This document shows positions 15,054 to 22,732 of a stretch of 37,341 nt of DNA, one piece after another; position 1 is the stretch's first letter, and every line of letters starts with the position of its first letter. Position numbers and translations under genes: made by a program. The notes under the pieces were generated by a model. The model did no database searches. It saw only the letters and a list, made by a program, of their open reading frames with translations, and had not been told where the DNA came from. Where the stretch lies: NCBI GenBank assembly GCA_900314575.1, contig OMVS01000014.1:1-37341 (forward strand), read 5' to 3'. The stretch comes from an uncultured Olsenella sp. Its GTDB lineage: Bacteria > Actinomycetota > Coriobacteriia > Coriobacteriales > Atopobiaceae.

Positions 15054-17081
15054 TTAATCCTCGTTGGTGCCCCCGTCGCCGCCCTCTGCGCCCGCAAGCC
15101 GTCCACCCAGCGCCTCGCGCTCCGCATCCCAGGCGCGCAGGGCGCAGAAGACCGCCTCGGCGACCTGCTCGGGGATCCCCCTCACGGAGGCGATCTGGTC
15201 GACGCTCGCGGCGCGCAGCCGCTTCATGGAGCCGAAATGGCGCAGGAGCGCGCGCTTGCGCGTGGGCCCCACCCCCGGCACGTCGTCCAGGACGGAGACG
15301 GTCATGGCCTTGTCGCGCAGCTCGCGGTGGAAGGTGATGGCAAAGCGGTGGCTCTCGTCGCGCACCTGCTTGATGAGGTAGAGGGAGGCCGAGCCCGAGG
15401 GAAGGACGATCGGCGTCTCGTCCCAGGGCACGAAGACCTCCTCGTCGCTCTTGGCGAGGCCGCAGCAGGGTATGTCGAGCCCGAGCCGGTCGAGCTGCTC
15501 GAGGGCGGCCGAGAGCTGGGGCTTGCCGCCGTCGAGGACGAGGAGGTCCGGCGCCTTGCCGAAGCGCTCGTCGGCCATGGTCTTGGGCCTGTAGCGCCTG
15601 CCCAGCACCTCGCCCATCGAGACGAAGTCGTTGGCCTCCTCGAGCGGCGTCTGGATCTTGAAGCGGCGGTACTGAGACTTGTCCGGGCGCCCGTTGGTGA
15701 AGACCACCATCGAGGCGACCGTGAAGCGCCCGTGCAGGGTCGAGATGTCGAAGCACTCGATGCGCATGGGGGGCGCATCGAGGGCCAGGGCGCTCTCAAG
15801 CTGGAGAAGGGCCTGGTTGGTGCGGTCGTCCGCGTAGCCGGTGCGCACCATGTAGCGGTTGAGGGCGTGGTGGGCGTTGGCGGCCGCCATCTCGAGCAGG
15901 TGGAGCTTCTCGCCGCGCTGCGGCCGCCTGACGCGGCAGCGCCTGCCGCGCTTCTCGGAGAGCCACTCCCCCACCACCTCGGCGTCCGGCAGGTCCACCA
16001 TGAGGTCGACCTCGGAGGGGATGTCGGCCGTCTCGTCGTAGTAGCGCTTGAGGAAGCCCCCCTGGAGCTCGACCTCGTCCACGTCGTTGCCCTTGTTGAG
16101 GACGAACTCGCTCGAGCGGATCGTGCGGCCCTCGCGCACCACGAAGACGCAGGCGGCCGAGATGGTCTCCTCGCGGTAGAAGCCGATGAGGTCGAGGCTC
16201 ACGGCCGACGAGAAGACCACCTCCTGCTTAGCGTTGAGCGCGCCGATGACGTCGAGGCGGTGCTTGATGCGCCCCGCGCGCTCGAACTCGAGCTCCGAGG
16301 CGGCCTCCTGCATCTGGGAGGTGAGCTCGTCGACAACCTCGGAGCGCTTGCCCGAGAGGAAGCGCTCGACCTGGCTCACGTGCCGGGCGTACTCGACCGT
16401 GTCGATCGCGCCGACGCAGACGCCCGGCCCCCGGCCGACGTGGTAGTCGAAGCAGGGCCTGCCGCTCTCGGCCAGAAGCAGGTTGGCGACGGCCGCGTCG
16501 TCCGGGTTCTTCTCCAGCATGCGCCTCACGCGCTTCCACTGCGCGCAGCCGGCCGAGCAGATGGGGATGACCTTGCGCAGCGTGTCGATCATGTCGCGCG
16601 CGGCGTGGGCGTCGGTGTAGGGACCGAAGTAGCGGGTGCCCTTGCGGTGGCGCTCGCGCGTGTACTTGATCGCGGGGAAGACGTCGGACTCCGTGATGGC
16701 GATGTAGGGGTAGCTCTTGTCGTCCTTGAAGTCGACGTTGAAGTAGGGGTGGTACTGCTCGATCAGGTTGCGCTCGAGCACGAGGGCCTCGTGCTCGTTG
16801 CCGACCACGATGTAGTCGAACGAGCGCACCACCTGCATCATCAGGGGAATCTTGGCGCGGTCGTCCGCGAGGGTCGTGTACTGGCGCATGCGAGCGCGCA
16901 GGTTCTTGGCCTTGCCGACGTAGATGACCTGGTCCTGGGCGTCCTTCCAGAGGTAGCAGCCGGGCTCGGTGGGGACCTGGTCCACCTGCTCGGCTATCGA
17001 GGGCAGGCCCTCCGCCTCGGGCGTGGGGGCCTTGAGGTCCGCCTGTATGTCCGGCTCGTAGCCGGGGTCCTTGATCGTCAT
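15054..17081 (-). CDS. uvrC: UvrC, excinuclease ABC subunit C
   Basis: UvrC makes both cuts in nucleotide excision repair. The 675-residue protein has an N-terminal GIY-YIG nuclease (PGCYLW...YVGKAKNLRARMRQY, about 35-115), a UvrB-interacting segment (about 240-275), an RNase H-like nuclease (FDISTLHG, LVLDGGKPQL, HRFAITFHR) and C-terminal helix-hairpin-helix motifs. Four cysteines bind an iron-sulfur cluster in E. coli UvrC; here C175, C210 and C222 match, but the third position is G218, and a spare C179 lies nearby, with an insertion of about 25 residues between C179 and C210. No ribosome site precedes the ATG at 17081, and a -10 lies 7 bases before it, so the message is probably leaderless. 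Confidence 0.96.
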   Translation of the reverse strand: MTIKDPGYEPDIQADLKAPTPEAEGLPSIAEQVDQVPTEPGCYLWKDAQDQVIYVGKAKNLRARMRQYTTLADDRAKIPLMMQVVRSFDYIVVGNEHEALVLERNLIEQYHPYFNVDFKDDKSYPYIAITESDVFPAIKYTRERHRKGTRYFGPYTDAHAARDMIDTLRKVIPICSAGCAQWKRVRRMLEKNPDDAAVANLLLAESGRPCFDYHVGRGPGVCVGAIDTVEYARHVSQVERFLSGKRSEVVDELTSQMQEAASELEFERAGRIKHRLDVIGALNAKQEVVFSSAVSLDLIGFYREETISAACVFVVREGRTIRSSEFVLNKGNDVDEVELQGGFLKRYYDETADIPSEVDLMVDLPDAEVVGEWLSEKRGRRCRVRRPQRGEKLHLLEMAAANAHHALNRYMVRTGYADDRTNQALLQLESALALDAPPMRIECFDISTLHGRFTVASMVVFTNGRPDKSQYRRFKIQTPLEEANDFVSMGEVLGRRYRPKTMADERFGKAPDLLVLDGGKPQLSAALEQLDRLGLDIPCCGLAKSDEEVFVPWDETPIVLPSGSASLYLIKQVRDESHRFAITFHRELRDKAMTVSVLDDVPGVGPTRKRALLRHFGSMKRLRAASVDQIASVRGIPEQVAEAVFCALRAWDAEREALGGRLAGAEGGDGGTNED

Positions 17082-17161: not shown

Positions 17162-19435
17162 CTAGAAGGAGGTCTCGGTCGGCTCCGGGTAGAAGGTCTG
17201 GAACTTGCGGATCTGGTTGCGCTCGGTGAGCTCCACGGCCAGCCGGTGGCCGGGGTTGCGGTCGCCGAGGTAGCGCTGCGGGTCGAAGACCTTGCCCGAG
17301 GACGCCAGCTCGCGCACCTCCTCGAGGAGGTCGCCCGAGACGTACTTCTCCACGAGGACCACCGGCACGACGGTGAAGAGGCCCTTCTCGAAGATCTTGA
17401 CCGCGCGCGGCTTCTTGTGGTCGATCACGTCCTCCACGCAGCAGCGCATGGGGTTGATGCCGCCGGCGACGTTGTAGTAGGAGCCGCGGCCGATCCGCGG
17501 GTTCATGTCCATGAAGACCACCCGGCCGGTCCTCGGGTCGCGCTTGGTGTCGAAGTTGCAGAAGCCCCGGTAGGGGTAGCCCTTCTCCTCGAGGTGCTTG
17601 AGCAGGGCCTCGATCTTCTTCCAGCTGTCCGGCATGGGACGCGAGATCATCGCGACGGGGTTACCGAGCATGGTGGGCGCGTGGTCCTCGAGGAGGACCT
17701 GCGCCGAGCCGTACATCGCCAGCGTGCCGTCGCTCGCCACGTAGACGGTGAGGCAGTCGATGTTGGTGTCGTCGCCCTCGATGAGCTCCTGGACCAGGAA
17801 CTCGCCGTGGAAGCCGGCGGCGCGCAAATCCGCCCAGAGGGCGTCGAGCTCGGACTGCTCGTGGAGGAAGTAGACCTTCTTGAAGCCCTGGGCGTAGAGG
17901 TGGTCGTAGCGCGCCGAGACGGCGGGCTTGGCGACGACGGGGAAGGCGAGGCCGCAGGGGGCGACGGGGGCATCGCCCGCAAGGTCGACGTACTCGGTCC
18001 TCGGGACGTCGATGCCGACCTCCTCGCACAGGGCCTGGAAGCGGGCCTTGTCTGAGACGAGCTCCACGACCTCCTCGGAGGGGACGGCGTAGAAGACGTT
18101 GGCGGGCAGGCGGTCCTTGGCCCCGTTGATGGCGTAGATCACGCCGTCGGTGTTACCCGTGAGGAAGACCTTCTTGTCCGGGTTCTCCTGCGCGATCTGG
18201 GTGACGGCGCGGACGATCTCGTCGGAGGTGACCTTGGCGATGGGGCGCACGTCGAAGATGTCGGAGTGCTGGATCGCCGCGATCGGGGCGGACGCCAGGC
18301 AGACGCTCTTGCAGTGGTAGGCCGCGTGCATCTCCGCGCCGAGCGAGTACGCGCCGATGTCGCCGCCCACGATCACGGGGACGAGGTCCTCGCGCGGCCT
18401 CTCGCGCAGCGCGCGCTCGGCCTCGGCGGCCTTGCGCTCGCGGCGCGCGGCGACGAAGCCGTGGGCCTGCGTGAGCAGCGCGTAGAGGGCCTGCTTGATC
18501 GGGAGGTCGCGGTCGGGCGCGACCGGGGTGACCTCCTTGGAGAACTTGCACTTGAACTCGTTCAGGCCCATGAGGGACGGCGCGAAGTCGGAGCCGATGC
18601 CCATCATGTCGTAGGCCGTGCAGCCCTTCTCGCCCGCCAGGTCGCGGCACTCCCAGAAGACCAGCCCGTCGGTGACGTGCGCGCGCTGGAACTCGGTGCG
18701 AGAGGCGCCGTAGTAGCGCGTCGCGCGGGTGCCGTTGATGGTGACGATCGACCAGGTCACGACCTTGCCGTCGACCCTGCCCGCGTACAGGCGGCAGTGG
18801 GAGGGCCCGAGGATGCGGAGCATGTCCTCGTAGTCCGAGGCCGGCGCGGGCTCGAAGCCGTCGCGCCGCCCGGTCTCCACGATCACGTCGTAGTACTCGG
18901 AGAAGGACTCGCGCGCCCGCTCGGTCTCGTCGGCGTAGGACGCCGGGCTCTCGCGCAGCGCCTTGCGGACGTCGCGGCGGCCGCGGGTCTTGAAGCGGGA
19001 GAGTACGTCCTCCTCGGAGCCGGTGAGGTCGATCACGACCGTCTGGTCGTAGGGGATGGTAGACAGGACGGCGTGGGTCTCGGGCAACTCGGCGCGGACG
19101 GCCAGGCGCACGAAGACGACCTTGGAATCGCGGGCGCGCACGCACTCGGCGATCGCGGCGAGCGCGGCGGACTCCTGCTCGGGGGTGGGTTCGGCGACCC
19201 AGGCGGGACCGTGGCCGGAGCGCAGGTAGTGGTAGCCATGGGTCTCGAAGTCGAGGAAGCTCACGAAGGCGACGGCCGCGCCGTCCTCCTCGACCACGAA
19301 GGAGCCCCACTGGCTGCGGCCGGGGACGGTGTCCTGGTAGCGGGCCCACACCTCCGTCTGCTCGATGGGCAACTCGCAGCCGAGGCCCTTTGCCTCGGAC
19401 TCCAACTGATCGAAGCTGACCTCTCTAAGCTGCAT
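17162..19435 (-). CDS. FemAB aminoacyltransferase fused to a D-aspartate-ligase-like ATP-grasp domain
   Basis: The 757-residue protein has two parts. Residues 1 to about 345 look like FemA/FemX peptidoglycan bridge enzymes: TVVIDLTGSEEDVLSRFKTR, RRDVRKAL, GFEPAPASDYEDML, YYGAS and a YDMMGIGSDF...LNEFKCKFS core. After a charged linker (331-350) comes an ATP-grasp enzyme (352-757) with VVAKPA (K503), VQELIEGDDTN, LLEDHAPTMLGNPV, FCNFDTKRDPRTG and the metal-binding MDMNPRIGRGSYY (D643, N645). These resemble Aslfm, the Enterococcus faecium ligase that puts beta-D-Asp on the stem-peptide lysine. Likely cytoplasmic, acting on lipid II or its precursors. The ATG at 19435 follows GGAGG. MurJ lies upstream and an aspartate racemase beyond, which supports the D-Asp role. 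The fused FemAB half may add another residue or bind the lipid substrate. Confidence 0.82.
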   Translation of the reverse strand: MQLREVSFDQLESEAKGLGCELPIEQTEVWARYQDTVPGRSQWGSFVVEEDGAAVAFVSFLDFETHGYHYLRSGHGPAWVAEPTPEQESAALAAIAECVRARDSKVVFVRLAVRAELPETHAVLSTIPYDQTVVIDLTGSEEDVLSRFKTRGRRDVRKALRESPASYADETERARESFSEYYDVIVETGRRDGFEPAPASDYEDMLRILGPSHCRLYAGRVDGKVVTWSIVTINGTRATRYYGASRTEFQRAHVTDGLVFWECRDLAGEKGCTAYDMMGIGSDFAPSLMGLNEFKCKFSKEVTPVAPDRDLPIKQALYALLTQAHGFVAARRERKAAEAERALRERPREDLVPVIVGGDIGAYSLGAEMHAAYHCKSVCLASAPIAAIQHSDIFDVRPIAKVTSDEIVRAVTQIAQENPDKKVFLTGNTDGVIYAINGAKDRLPANVFYAVPSEEVVELVSDKARFQALCEEVGIDVPRTEYVDLAGDAPVAPCGLAFPVVAKPAVSARYDHLYAQGFKKVYFLHEQSELDALWADLRAAGFHGEFLVQELIEGDDTNIDCLTVYVASDGTLAMYGSAQVLLEDHAPTMLGNPVAMISRPMPDSWKKIEALLKHLEEKGYPYRGFCNFDTKRDPRTGRVVFMDMNPRIGRGSYYNVAGGINPMRCCVEDVIDHKKPRAVKIFEKGLFTVVPVVLVEKYVSGDLLEEVRELASSGKVFDPQRYLGDRNPGHRLAVELTERNQIRKFQTFYPEPTETSF

Positions 19436-19513
19436 GGGGCCTCCAAGCGGGCGCGGGGCCCGACGTCGGTTCTGTGCCGGCCGGGCGCCCCTCGGGGCGG
19501 CGGCGTCCTAGCG

Positions 19514-19519
19514 ATTCTA
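19514..19519 (-). promoter_or_regulatory. Possible -10 for the FemAB/ATP-grasp gene
   Basis: Minus-strand TAGAAT matches the sigma-70 -10 at five of six positions, about 80 bases before the ATG and just after the murJ terminator hairpin. No matching -35 is seen. Confidence 0.3.
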
Positions 19520-19560
19520 CGGCACCGCACGGGCGCGGGGCCGCTTTGCACGGTAGCTAC

Positions 19561-19584
19561 AGAAAGCCGCGCGCGGCGCGCGGC
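19561..19584 (-). terminator. Terminator of murJ
   Basis: GCCGCGCGC (19566-19574) and its complement (19576-19584) form a near-perfect GC hairpin; on the minus strand it is followed by TTTCT. It lies 24 bases past the murJ stop. It separates murJ from the fusion gene, though read-through may occur. Confidence 0.6.
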
Positions 19585-19607
19585 CAGCCCGCAGGCGGCC
19601 GCCGCTA

Positions 19608-21350
19608 TCAGTGCGACCTGCGGAGAAGGGCCTTGACCTCCCGGGACTCGGGCATCTTGGTGGCGAGCGCGAGGCCGTAGGTGACCGCGACCGCCGGCAC
19701 GCCGCCGGCGACGCAGTACAGGACGCTGCCGAGGAGCGAGTGGACCTCTCCCAGGACCGAGGTCACGCCCGCCAGCACGAGGGCGCCCACGGCCGCGCCG
19801 GCGAGGCCGACCGCGAGCGAGCGCAGCGCCGAGGCGGCCATCCGGGAGACGCCGACGTGCCCCAGGGTCCTGCGCAGGCTGAAGAGGGCCACCACGTCGA
19901 TCGCCGCGTAGTACAGGGTCGAGGAGAACGCCACCCCCGCGAGCCCGAAGGGGCCGACCGCCCAGAGGCAGAAGGCGACCTGCACCGCGGCCCCGACCAC
20001 GGCCGCCACGGCGTAGGCCATCATGCGGTGCAGCGAGGAGCAGACCTTCTGCAGGAGGGTCGAGACGCCGTAGGCGGGCAGCGCCGTGGCGAGGAAGACG
20101 AGGTAGACGGACATCTCCGCGAGCGCCTGGGAGTCGATGCGCCCGGCGGCGAGGAGGTAGGAGAGCTCGGGGGCGAACACCATCAGGTACATCATGAACG
20201 GGACGAGCCAGAAGTTGATGCGGTTGACGCCGAACAGCAGGCCCCGCTTGAAGGAGTCCATGTCCCCGTCGGAGGCGTACTGGGAGAGCTCGGTGAACAG
20301 GGCGACCGTGATGGGGACCGCGAAGACCGAGTAGGGCAGCATGTACCAGATGCGCGAGTAGTACGCGATCGAGGGCCCGGCGGCCGTGACCTGCGAGGCA
20401 GCCGACGACATGACCGAGACCGTCGGGAAGGACGCGATCGTGACCACGAGGGTGGGCAGGCCGATGGAGAGCATGTCCCTGAGCGCCGGGTCGTGGAAGT
20501 CGACCAGGAGGCGCAGCCGGATGCCGTGGCGCTTGAGGGAGGGCACCTGGAGCAGCACCTGCACGAGGACGCCCAGGGGGTTGCCAAGCGCGAGCGAAAG
20601 GATGGCGACCGTGGGGTTGGACTTGGCGAAGACCAGATAGAGCACGAAGGAGAGGGTGCAGATCACGTTGTTGAAGATCGGCGCCGCGTTGCTCCAGAAG
20701 TAGTCGCGCTCCGCGTTCAGGATGCCCGAGAGGATCGAGGAGAGCGCGTAGAGCACGACCTCGATCGCGAAGAAGCGGAAGAAGTAGACCGACAGGTCGT
20801 GGTCGAAGCCCTCGGCGGCGCCGGCGGAGTTGGTCCAGATGACGAAGTCGGCGAAGACGAGGGAGACGGCCGTCAGGACGAGCATGAACAGGCCGACGAT
20901 GGCGATGAGGTTGGAGGCGTAGCGGTTCGAGCCCTCCCGCCCGAGCCTCTTCCTCACCTGGATGTAGGTCGGCAGGAACGCCGTCATGATCACGCCGCCG
21001 GCCACGAGCTCGTAGAGCATGTTGGGCATGTTGTTGGCGACGGTGTAGACGCTCGCGAGGCCCGTGACGCCCAGCGCGATCGACTGGCCCCAGGTGCGCA
21101 TGAGGCCCGTGATGCGCGAGATGACGACAAGGACGCTCATCATCGCGGCGGACCTGGCGACCGAGCCGGCAGAGCCGTCCTGGGGGGCGTCGCCGGTCTC
21201 GGGCCGTGCGGGCCCGGCCTGGTCGGGCCCGGAGCCCCCTGCCGCAGGGGCCGCCGCGGCGGCGTCCGCGCCCTTGGGGGCCTCCTGAGCGCCTGCCCCC
21301 GCCTCCCCCGCCTCGCCGGACGGCCTCCTGAGATGCTTCGGTTCTGCCAT
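19608..21350 (-). CDS. murJ: MurJ, lipid II flippase
   Basis: MurJ moves lipid II across the cytoplasmic membrane for peptidoglycan synthesis. The 580-residue protein has the MOP-superfamily layout: about 14 hydrophobic helices, the N-terminal SVLVVISRITGLMR and the conserved NNMPNMLYELVAGGVIMTAFLPTY region, with Arg residues of the central cavity in place. Residues 1 to about 60 form an Ala/Gly/Pro-rich, probably disordered cytoplasmic extension, common in actinobacterial MurJ. I chose the ATG at 21350 because GAGAGG lies 6 bases upstream; an ATG two codons earlier has no room for a ribosome site. It is divergent from the racemase gene and upstream of the FemAB/ATP-grasp ligase. Confidence 0.93.
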   Translation of the reverse strand: MAEPKHLRRPSGEAGEAGAGAQEAPKGADAAAAAPAAGGSGPDQAGPARPETGDAPQDGSAGSVARSAAMMSVLVVISRITGLMRTWGQSIALGVTGLASVYTVANNMPNMLYELVAGGVIMTAFLPTYIQVRKRLGREGSNRYASNLIAIVGLFMLVLTAVSLVFADFVIWTNSAGAAEGFDHDLSVYFFRFFAIEVVLYALSSILSGILNAERDYFWSNAAPIFNNVICTLSFVLYLVFAKSNPTVAILSLALGNPLGVLVQVLLQVPSLKRHGIRLRLLVDFHDPALRDMLSIGLPTLVVTIASFPTVSVMSSAASQVTAAGPSIAYYSRIWYMLPYSVFAVPITVALFTELSQYASDGDMDSFKRGLLFGVNRINFWLVPFMMYLMVFAPELSYLLAAGRIDSQALAEMSVYLVFLATALPAYGVSTLLQKVCSSLHRMMAYAVAAVVGAAVQVAFCLWAVGPFGLAGVAFSSTLYYAAIDVVALFSLRRTLGHVGVSRMAASALRSLAVGLAGAAVGALVLAGVTSVLGEVHSLLGSVLYCVAGGVPAVAVTYGLALATKMPESREVKALLRRSH

Positions 21351-21520
21351 GGACATCCTCTCGCGGGGTAGACTCTTGCTTGTCGTCCGTTCGCGCGAGC
21401 GGGCCGAGCGCCCAGGGCTGCCTCGCACCCACGCGTTTTTCTCGTGGGAAGGGTACCCTCGCCGCCGGCGGACGGCCGGCCGAAGCCGCACACAAACACC
21501 AACTCTACGGAGATGCAGCC

Positions 21521-22249
21521 ATGCACAAGCCTGTTCTCGGCATCGTCGGCGGGGTGGGCCCGCTCGCCACCGCCTACTTCATGGAGGCGATCATCAAGAA
21601 GACGCCGGCCGCGCGCGACCAGGACAACATCCCCATGATCGTGTTCAACGATCCGCAGATCCCCGACCGCACCGCCTACATCCTCGACCACGGAATGCCC
21701 GACCCGCAGCCCGAGATGGTGAAGGTCGCGCGCTGGCTCGAGGACGCTGGCGCGGACTACCTCGCCATCCCCTGCAACACGGCGCACTACTTCTACGACG
21801 CCATCGCCAGCTCGGTCGGGGTACCGGTCCTCAACATCATGAGCGAGACGGCCCGGCGCATCTCCAGGACCATCGGCACCGGCGGCACCGTGGGCCTCAT
21901 GGCGACCGACGGCACCATCGAGTCGGGGGTCTTCCAGGGCTACTTCCGCGAGGCGGGCCTCGAGACCATGACCCCTGGGGACGACGACCGGCGCACCCTC
22001 ATGTCGCTCATCTACGACTGCGTGAAGGCGAACAGGCCCTACGACGCGGACGAGTTCCTCGGCGTGGTCCGCCGCCTGCGCGACGCGGGCTGCGACGCCG
22101 TGGTCGTGGGCTGCACCGAGCTCTCCGTCATCTTCCAGGACCTGCGCGAGCGGCCCGACTACCTCTTCGACTCCCTCGACATCCTGGCCGGGCGCTGCGT
22201 CGAGCTCTACCTCGACGCCCGCGAGGCCGGCGGCATGGTGGAGATGTAG
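21521..22249 (+). CDS. Aspartate racemase family protein
   Basis: Members interconvert L- and D-aspartate (or glutamate) without cofactor, using two cysteines. In the 242-residue protein these are C85 (AIPCNTAHYF) and C198 (VVGCTELSV), and the family start LGIVGGVGPLAT is present. The ATG at 21521 has CGGAGA 8 bases upstream and gives the usual length; an ORF reaching further back to 21380 runs through the divergent promoter region. It faces away from murJ across 170 bases and converges on hisI with only 18 bases between stops. D-Asp made here would supply the ATP-grasp ligase. A glutamate or broad-range racemase is an alternative. Confidence 0.85.
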   Translation: MHKPVLGIVGGVGPLATAYFMEAIIKKTPAARDQDNIPMIVFNDPQIPDRTAYILDHGMPDPQPEMVKVARWLEDAGADYLAIPCNTAHYFYDAIASSVGVPVLNIMSETARRISRTIGTGGTVGLMATDGTIESGVFQGYFREAGLETMTPGDDDRRTLMSLIYDCVKANRPYDADEFLGVVRRLRDAGCDAVVVGCTELSVIFQDLRERPDYLFDSLDILAGRCVELYLDAREAGGMVEM

Positions 22250-22267: not shown

Positions 22268-22648
22268 CTACTCCCCCGTGAGCTCGCGGAAGAAGCAGCT
22301 CCTGTGGCCCGTGTGGCAGGCGGGGCCGGGGGAGTCGACCTCGTAGACGAGGGTGTCGGCGTCGCAGTCCACGAGGACGCGCTCGACGCGCTGCACGTTG
22401 CCGCTGGTGGCGCCCTTGTTCCACAGCTCCTTGCGGGAGCGCGACCAGAACCAGCTCGTATGGGTCGAGAAGGTCAGGCGGATCGCCTCCTCGTTCGCCC
22501 AGGCGACCATCAGCACCTCGCCCGAGCCCGCCTGCTGGACCACGACGGGGACGAGGCCCCGCTCGTCGTAGCCGATCGCGGCCTCCGCGAGCGTCACCTC
22601 GCCCAGCGCCTCGCCGGCGTAGCTGCCGGCGCCGTCCTTCTCCTCCAT
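22268..22648 (-). CDS. hisI: Phosphoribosyl-AMP cyclohydrolase
   Basis: This is the third step of histidine synthesis, opening the adenine ring of phosphoribosyl-AMP. The 126-residue single-domain protein has the metal-binding DCDAD (D94, C95, D96, D98) and the zinc cysteines C111 and C118 in CHTGHRSC, plus SRSRKELWNKGATSGN. The ATG at 22648 follows GGGAGGACCC. It is not fused to hisE, and hisE is not in the window. It is separated from the main his operon by a divergent gene, so it must be transcribed on its own. Confidence 0.95.
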   Translation of the reverse strand: MEEKDGAGSYAGEALGEVTLAEAAIGYDERGLVPVVVQQAGSGEVLMVAWANEEAIRLTFSTHTSWFWSRSRKELWNKGATSGNVQRVERVLVDCDADTLVYEVDSPGPACHTGHRSCFFRELTGE

Positions 22649-22732
22649 GGGTCCTCCCCTCCCCGCCGGCCGCACCACCCGGCCGGCCGACGTACCTGCC
22701 TCCTGTTGTCATCTGGCCCCGGGACGTCCGAG

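Follow-up and report, generated by a model that had tools for sequence, protein, structure and literature searches.

A FemAB–ATP-grasp fusion encoded beside murJ in an uncultured Olsenella sp.: a predicted two-step synthase of peptidoglycan bridges

Introduction

Peptidoglycan walls of types A4 and A5, with bridges of the form Xaa-D-Asp or Xaa-D-Glu, have served taxonomists for decades, and the acidic residue of A4 bridges is usually the distal one. We know of no identified enzyme that adds D-Glu to the bridge or that makes its D-Ser. Recognition by phage lysins and immune receptors is influenced by the type of bridge. As a rule, ATP-grasp ligases attach the D-residues of bridges, and Fem ligases the L-residues and glycine (PMC2922099); ligases of the Asl type include Aslfm of Enterococcus faecium and AslA of Lactococcus lactis, the latter described with its racemase as racD-aslA (PMC4155827). 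The BppA1/BppA2 and FemABX enzymes assemble the bridge stepwise in the cytoplasm, with a separate tRNA-dependent enzyme for each residue. Here, we describe a gene located in a 37,341-nucleotide stretch of DNA (the window) from an uncultured Olsenella sp. (GenBank assembly GCA_900314575.1, contig OMVS01000014.1), the product of which carries a FemX-like aminoacyltransferase and an ATP-grasp ligase on one chain and, by the division of labor cited above, unites both kinds of enzyme.

This fusion is probably a peptidoglycan bridge synthase that carries out two steps on a single chain and yields L-Xaa-D-(Asp or Glu), which makes it a named candidate enzyme for both steps of an Xaa-D-acid bridge. 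Assembly would be stepwise and cytoplasmic, as with BppA1/BppA2 and FemABX, but with the tRNA- and ATP-dependent steps placed on one chain. In addition, comparison of gene content with wall types yields a tentative rule by which the bridges of gut and oral actinobacteria could be predicted from their genes.

Domain Architecture and Predicted Structure of the Fusion Protein

An earlier note on the window, made from its letters alone, described one continuous 757-residue frame joining a FemX-like enzyme to an ATP-grasp domain, and this description is borne out by the open frame, the Pfam matches, the predicted folds and ten further genomes (Table 1). A Pfam profile search matched PF13480 to residues 152–283 (2.5e-10, 41.1 bits; cut-off 22) and PF02388 to residues 229–324 only (5.2e-10, 39.2 bits; cut-off 24), whereas the C-terminal half gave weak matches, below cut-offs, to carbamoyl-phosphate-synthase-like ATP-grasp models. 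The proposed assignment of the two halves thus holds by profile for the FemAB half and by fold for both. In an AlphaFold model built from a 41-row alignment (mean predicted local distance difference test score, pLDDT, 93.8; predicted template modeling score, pTM, 0.67), residues 1–325 adopt a FemX fold (6snr, Z-score 28.0 over 310 residues; 1ne9, Z-score 26.1) and residues 348–742 an ATP-grasp fold (2pn1, Z-score 25.8; PylC, Z-score 24.6).

The FemX-like half has the fold (Z-scores of 26–28) and Pfam family of the FemX/MurM/FemAB enzymes, including FemX of Weissella viridescens and of S. aureus, and probably shares with them the tRNA-dependent addition of the first residue, but its identity to them is 16–20%, and the fusion alone bears a C-terminal ATP-grasp ligase. 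An F294–K295 pair kept in all 11 known fusions (see below) is assumed from its position to correspond to the FemX Phe-Lys pair serving aminoacyl-tRNA (F304–K305 in W. viridescens). In the ATP-grasp half, the conserved residues are K503, Q549–E550, D629, K631, N645, and R647, and K503, N645, R647, and others are common to this half and Asl. Among its ligase-fold matches whose reaction is known, the best is PylC, which links a D-amino acid to Lys through the side-chain amine (structure 4ffm contains that product) but is 15% identical and belongs to another pathway. A search of solved structures with ATP-grasp halves returned no Asl entry, and identification of a D-Asp ligase from the fold alone was rejected, as the ATP-grasp fold suits many ligases. 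The domain architecture, folds and conserved catalytic residues of the fusion are established; its transferase and ligase activities are predictions.

The fusion also contains the only PF02388 match in the source genome and the only ATP-grasp domain of this ligase family found there by homologue search. In the PDB, the proteins closest in sequence to the FemAB half are aminoacyl-tRNA-dependent peptide synthases solved with streptothrisamine, and ATP-grasp and DegT genes are generally known from glycan loci as well; these points could suggest that the fusion makes a non-peptidoglycan peptide, for instance as a natural product or to decorate a glycan, like the Sba18/Sbb17-type FemAB enzymes. Such a role is very improbable, given that the top fold match is FemX, the fusion carries the sole PF02388 domain of its genome, the position between murJ and uvrC recurs in many genera, gene presence or absence follows the known wall types, and the surroundings contain no biosynthetic cluster.

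Occurrence and Origins of the Fusion

A survey of 140 genomes of the family Atopobiaceae, including Olsenella and Atopobium, identified homologues of the FemAB half in 70 and of the ATP-grasp half in 128, nearly always in one copy each. An exception to the one-per-genome rule is found in loci L056 and L302 (genomes G177 and G275), each of which contains two class-A ATP-grasp genes (classes are defined below). Both halves lie in one open frame in 11 of the 140 genomes, including the source genome and that of the isolate Coriobacteriales bacterium OH1046 (G182), and the mean column identity across these 11 frames is 66%. Since ten other genomes carry the single frame, the fusion is genuine and is neither an assembly error nor a product of chance. 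Collinsella tanakaei ET10 (G120/L034) was rejected as a further case because a stop codon separates the two genes. A literature search for a FemAB–ATP-grasp fusion returned nothing usable.

The fusions are dispersed over the ATP-grasp tree, requiring at least five gains or losses, and a single origin as one clade was rejected (approximately unbiased test, p 1e-38); the FemAB tree requires seven changes of fusion state. Neighboring genes appear to have fused recurrently. On this tree, the FemAB half of the window groups as sister with that of G229, a genus mate (support 99/93), and the window protein has the appearance of a mosaic in which the ligase partner was exchanged, because the ATP-grasp domain of G229 is encoded by a separate class-B gene. 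Within this one genus, split FemAB, DegT, and class-B ATP-grasp genes (G114 and G229; loci L037 and L307) are found as well as the fused class-A form with a racemase (G000, the source genome). Unfused neighboring genes are the commoner state in the family, and a GTG codon is present at the border between the two halves, as might be expected if one half were inert or if the frame were a recent accidental read-through whose product is cleaved or translated as two proteins. This explanation is scarcely credible in view of the 11 intact fusions, the catalytic residues kept in both halves, and the five or more changes on the tree.

Two Classes of ATP-Grasp Ligase and the Order of Steps

The ATP-grasp homologues within Atopobiaceae fall into two classes, with identities to the window half of 44–58% (class A) and 26–38% (class B). 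In a tree of 106 rows, class A forms one clade of 64 rows (support 100) that contains the window, more than a dozen rows from Actinomycetaceae, and Bifidobacterium boum with its relatives; the lactobacillar Asl, B. adolescentis and its kin, Collinsella, and Olsenella uli all fall outside it. The Asl sequences compared were lactobacillar, in the pairwise comparisons that of L. curvatus, and not E. faecium Aslfm. The L. curvatus ligase is encoded beside aspS and a racemase gene, and a gene for an aspartate transaminase/decarboxylase is also adjacent, which is the order expected of AslA-RacD. The window half is 42% identical to its homologue in Arcanobacterium ihumii, of a family with D-Glu bridges, 29% to that of O. 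uli, and 23% to L. curvatus Asl; the O. uli and L. curvatus ligases are 31% identical to each other. The likeness to Aslfm on which the earlier note relied is therefore real at the level of the superfamily, and it does not extend further, since the half matches a separate sub-clade better than it matches Asl, an outcome that the earlier note had itself named as contrary to its reading. The two kinds of enzyme are alike in overall length, catalytic residues and wall-bridge context, but differ in clade and in motifs (NTD in place of GCGD, GRNS, or GRGS in the window, in place of GRSS, and NPM in place of NLA), and the fusions are joined to FemAB and mostly lack a racemase.

A FemAB gene accompanies the ligase in 34 of the 39 class-A genomes of Atopobiaceae, as opposed to 44 of the 89 class-B genomes (p 6e-5), leaving 45 class-B genomes without one. 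Outside the family, 113 of 121 Actinomycetaceae genomes match the fusion, many of them with class-A-like ligases and FemAB neighbors. Because class A nearly always occurs with FemAB and many class-B ligases do not, and because the acidic residue is distal in usual A4 bridges, the FemAB half most likely acts first, on the amine of residue 3, which reverses the order proposed in the earlier note, where D-Asp was added to the stem before any FemAB residue. In the proposed first step, aminoacyl-tRNA would supply the FemX-like half with an L-amino acid, most likely serine, for attachment to stem residue 3 (Lys or Orn) at its side-chain amine; the precursor carrying the stem would be lipid-linked or a nucleotide. 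In the second, the ATP-grasp half would use ATP to activate a D-dicarboxylic acid at its side-chain carboxylate and would couple it to the amine of the newly added residue, giving L-Xaa-D-(Asp or Glu), and MurJ would then flip the modified product. The default donor of class A would probably be D-Glu, from MurI. As compared with the D-Asp pathway originally envisaged, the role in the wall bridge, the presence of both halves on one chain and the link to MurJ are retained, and the Asl identity and the order of steps are not.

A more direct route is conceivable, in which the ATP-grasp half is of the Asl type and adds D-Asp to stem residue 3 itself, with FemAB adding something else or nothing. This route would agree with the shared superfamily, with the intact racemase gene 2 kb away, and with the altered motif at residues 649–652 that accompanies racemases in genomes with class A only. 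It is nevertheless unlikely: class A is a fully supported clade apart from both Asl and O. uli, 8 of the 11 fusions have no racemase, and FemAB is present in the great majority of class-A genomes, unlike the single-residue class-B genomes, which suggests that the acceptor is the FemAB product.

The Altered Motif, the Racemase and the Identity of the Donor

The earlier note treated the fusion, murJ, and the racemase as one module. However, MurJ adjoins the fusion in 7 of the 11 fusion loci, and the racemase is present in 3 of the fusion genomes and absent from 8; the racemase is thus not part of a conserved fusion module. In the window, it lies near the fusion but is divergent, past murJ, and not on the same strand. 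Across the whole family, racemase genes occur in 8 of 39 class-A and 33 of 89 class-B genomes, a weak difference (p 0.07), and the window racemase is about 60–73% identical to racemases encoded directly beside class-B ligases elsewhere.

A closer association was found with the motif at residues 649–652, a few residues past the catalytic Asn645. Altered forms (GRGS in the window; GRAS, GANS, GASS, GCNS, or GNNS in others) occur in all seven racemase-bearing genomes with class A only, as opposed to 3 of the 29 racemase-free ones (p 1.4e-5, uncorrected for kinship), and none of the 26 class-A-only genomes with the canonical GRNS has a racemase (G086 carries a homologue with this canonical form). 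The association is suggestive, and the window lineage may have changed its donor, D-Glu giving way to D-Asp. D-Asp may be the donor in the source organism because the altered motif tracks the racemase, not because of any likeness to Aslfm. For that organism, we give an even chance to D-Asp supplied through the neighboring racemase, which makes it as likely as D-Glu or slightly more so; D-Glu itself falls a little short of an even chance, and any other donor is improbable.

A two-step synthase acting strictly with D-Glu, in which the racemase would serve, for example, D-Asp or cysteate metabolism, is a sub-case that overlaps with the proposed synthase and is plausible but somewhat doubtful. The nearest class-A members outside Coriobacteriia are in Actinomycetaceae with D-Glu bridges (PMC6113628, PMC5720513) and in B. 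boum; MurI already supplies D-Glu, so that no dedicated racemase is needed, as in the eight fusions lacking one; and the window racemase scores above the cut-off for the cysteate racemase CuyB (NF052483, 232.9 bits; cut-off 190). The CuyB label is not decisive, since the D-Asp-linked racemase of O. uli also passes (223.8 bits). Moreover, the window copy has lost the class-A Asn at position 651, and the genus mates G114 and G229 have no racemase, so that within the genus the racemase tracks the fusion.

Gene Content and Wall Types

Genomes of B. adolescentis, B. angulatum, B. indicum, and B. coryneforme, whose bridge is Lys-D-Asp, contain class B and a racemase without FemAB, whereas those of B. 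longum, B. catenulatum, B. animalis, and B. minimum, whose bridges have no acidic residue, contain FemAB only. B. bifidum (Orn-D-Ser-D-Asp) has FemAB, class B, a racemase, and a DegT-family gene, and B. boum (Lys-D-Ser-D-Glu) has FemAB, class A, and DegT. O. uli (G126), the bridge of which is L-Orn-D-Asp (PMC3035265), likewise encodes a class-B ligase beside a racemase and lacks FemAB genes of these families, and the bridges published for Actinomycetaceae are L-Lys-L-Lys-D-Glu (PMC6113628, PMC5720513, PMC3035375). This pattern suggests that FemAB provides the first residue, class B D-Asp, and class A D-Glu.

The DegT-family gene is present in 43 of the 44 Atopobiaceae genomes with class B and FemAB, as opposed to 3 of the 34 with class A and FemAB. 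Among 24 genomes tested, it was found only in B. boum and B. bifidum, the two with D-Ser in the bridge, and its product is a candidate maker of bridge D-Ser. None of the 11 fusion genomes contains it, and an L-residue is therefore predicted in their bridges. D-Ser before D-Asp or D-Glu is known from Actinotalea (L-Orn-D-Ser-D-Asp and L-Orn-D-Ser-D-Glu; PMC8878594). Taken together, we propose, tentatively, that the bridge in Coriobacteriia, bifidobacteria, and Actinomycetaceae is set by three types of gene: FemAB would add the first residue; the ligase would add the acidic one, class A using D-Glu, or D-Asp when its motif is altered and a racemase has been gained, and class B using D-Asp; and DegT would turn the first serine into D-Ser. 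The window would represent an extreme form in which the tRNA- and ATP-dependent steps are merged.

Several observations weigh against the two-step synthase and the scheme built on it. Most bifidobacterial genome identities, and the bridge types set against them, are taken by us from general knowledge. No experiment on any class-A enzyme was found in the literature surveyed, and the pTM leaves the relative placement of the two halves of the fusion unsure. The link between motif and racemase reflects few independent origins, with about three changes of each on the tree, and a sign test was not significant. Many class-B genomes also have no racemase, so that its absence does not exclude D-Asp. 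A homologue search of Atopobium parvulum (G082, L185), which has an L-Lys-D-Asp wall (PMC3035223), returned no homologue of either half; the family is therefore not the sole route to a D-Asp bridge, and the D-Asp ligase of this species must differ. In A. haemolyticum (G538, L282), for which an L-Lys-L-Lys-D-Glu bridge has been published, the only relatives are a distant FemAB/ATP-grasp pair encoded side by side (26–27% identity), which does not allow the D-Glu of this species to be attributed to class A proper. Literature on the wall types of A. minutum, A. fossor, P. umbonata, and most bifidobacteria yielded nothing usable.

Organization of the murJ–uvrC Locus

The two neighbors named in the earlier note, murJ upstream of the fusion and an Asp/Glu-type racemase divergent from murJ, were confirmed (Table 1). 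The murJ product matches PF03023 (4e-56, 190.8 bits; cut-off 27.4) and scores 209.7 with TIGR01695, below the strict cut-off of 235.55, and the racemase matches PF01177 (2e-44) and carries both cysteine motifs, PCNTAH and GCTELS.

Table 1. Features of the fusion gene and its surroundings in the window.
Feature	Position	Strand	Basis or remark
FemAB–ATP-grasp fusion gene	17162..19435	(-)	757 aa in one uninterrupted open frame
FemX-like aminoacyltransferase half, residues 1–325	18461..19435	(-)	PF13480/PF02388, FemX fold, alignment of fusions
Charged helical linker, residues 326–350	18386..18460	(-)	Alignment; long helix 315–345 in AlphaFold model
Class-A ATP-grasp ligase half, residues 351–757	17165..18385	(-)	Alignment, tree, AlphaFold fold
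Altered active-site motif GRGS, residues 649–652 (class-A norm GRNS)	17480..17491	(-)	Alignment
murJ (lipid II flippase), upstream of fusion	19608..21491	(-)	627-aa frame; PF03023
Asp/Glu-type amino-acid racemase, divergent from murJ	21512..22249	(+)	ATG at 21512; PF01177, TIGR00035 above cut-off
uvrC, downstream neighbor	15054..17081	(-)	Conserved; marks locus across Atopobiaceae and Coriobacteriaceae
hisI, conserved neighbor of racemase	22268..22678	(-)	

In many Atopobiaceae and Coriobacteriaceae, a variable set of genes (FemAB, ATP-grasp, a DegT-family gene, and sometimes a racemase) is located between uvrC and murJ/hisI, and in dozens of genomes the genes flanked by uvrC and murJ are FemAB and ATP-grasp, often together with DegT; in the window, the fusion is the only gene between uvrC and murJ. 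The FemAB genes of this locus belong to at least two families.

The DegT/DnrJ-type protein, a pyridoxal phosphate (PLP) type, is encoded beside FemAB and ATP-grasp at L045:10555-11739, has homologues in about 52 Atopobiaceae genomes, and is of the same type as those encoded in B. bifidum (L236:4589-5656) and B. boum (L151:9173-10258). In several genomes with an altered 649–652 motif, a third, longer FemAB-type protein of about 433 aa, estimated by eye (L050:5992-8493, L098:7622-8929, and L096:6980-8281), is encoded between the FemAB gene and that of the class-A ATP-grasp ligase.

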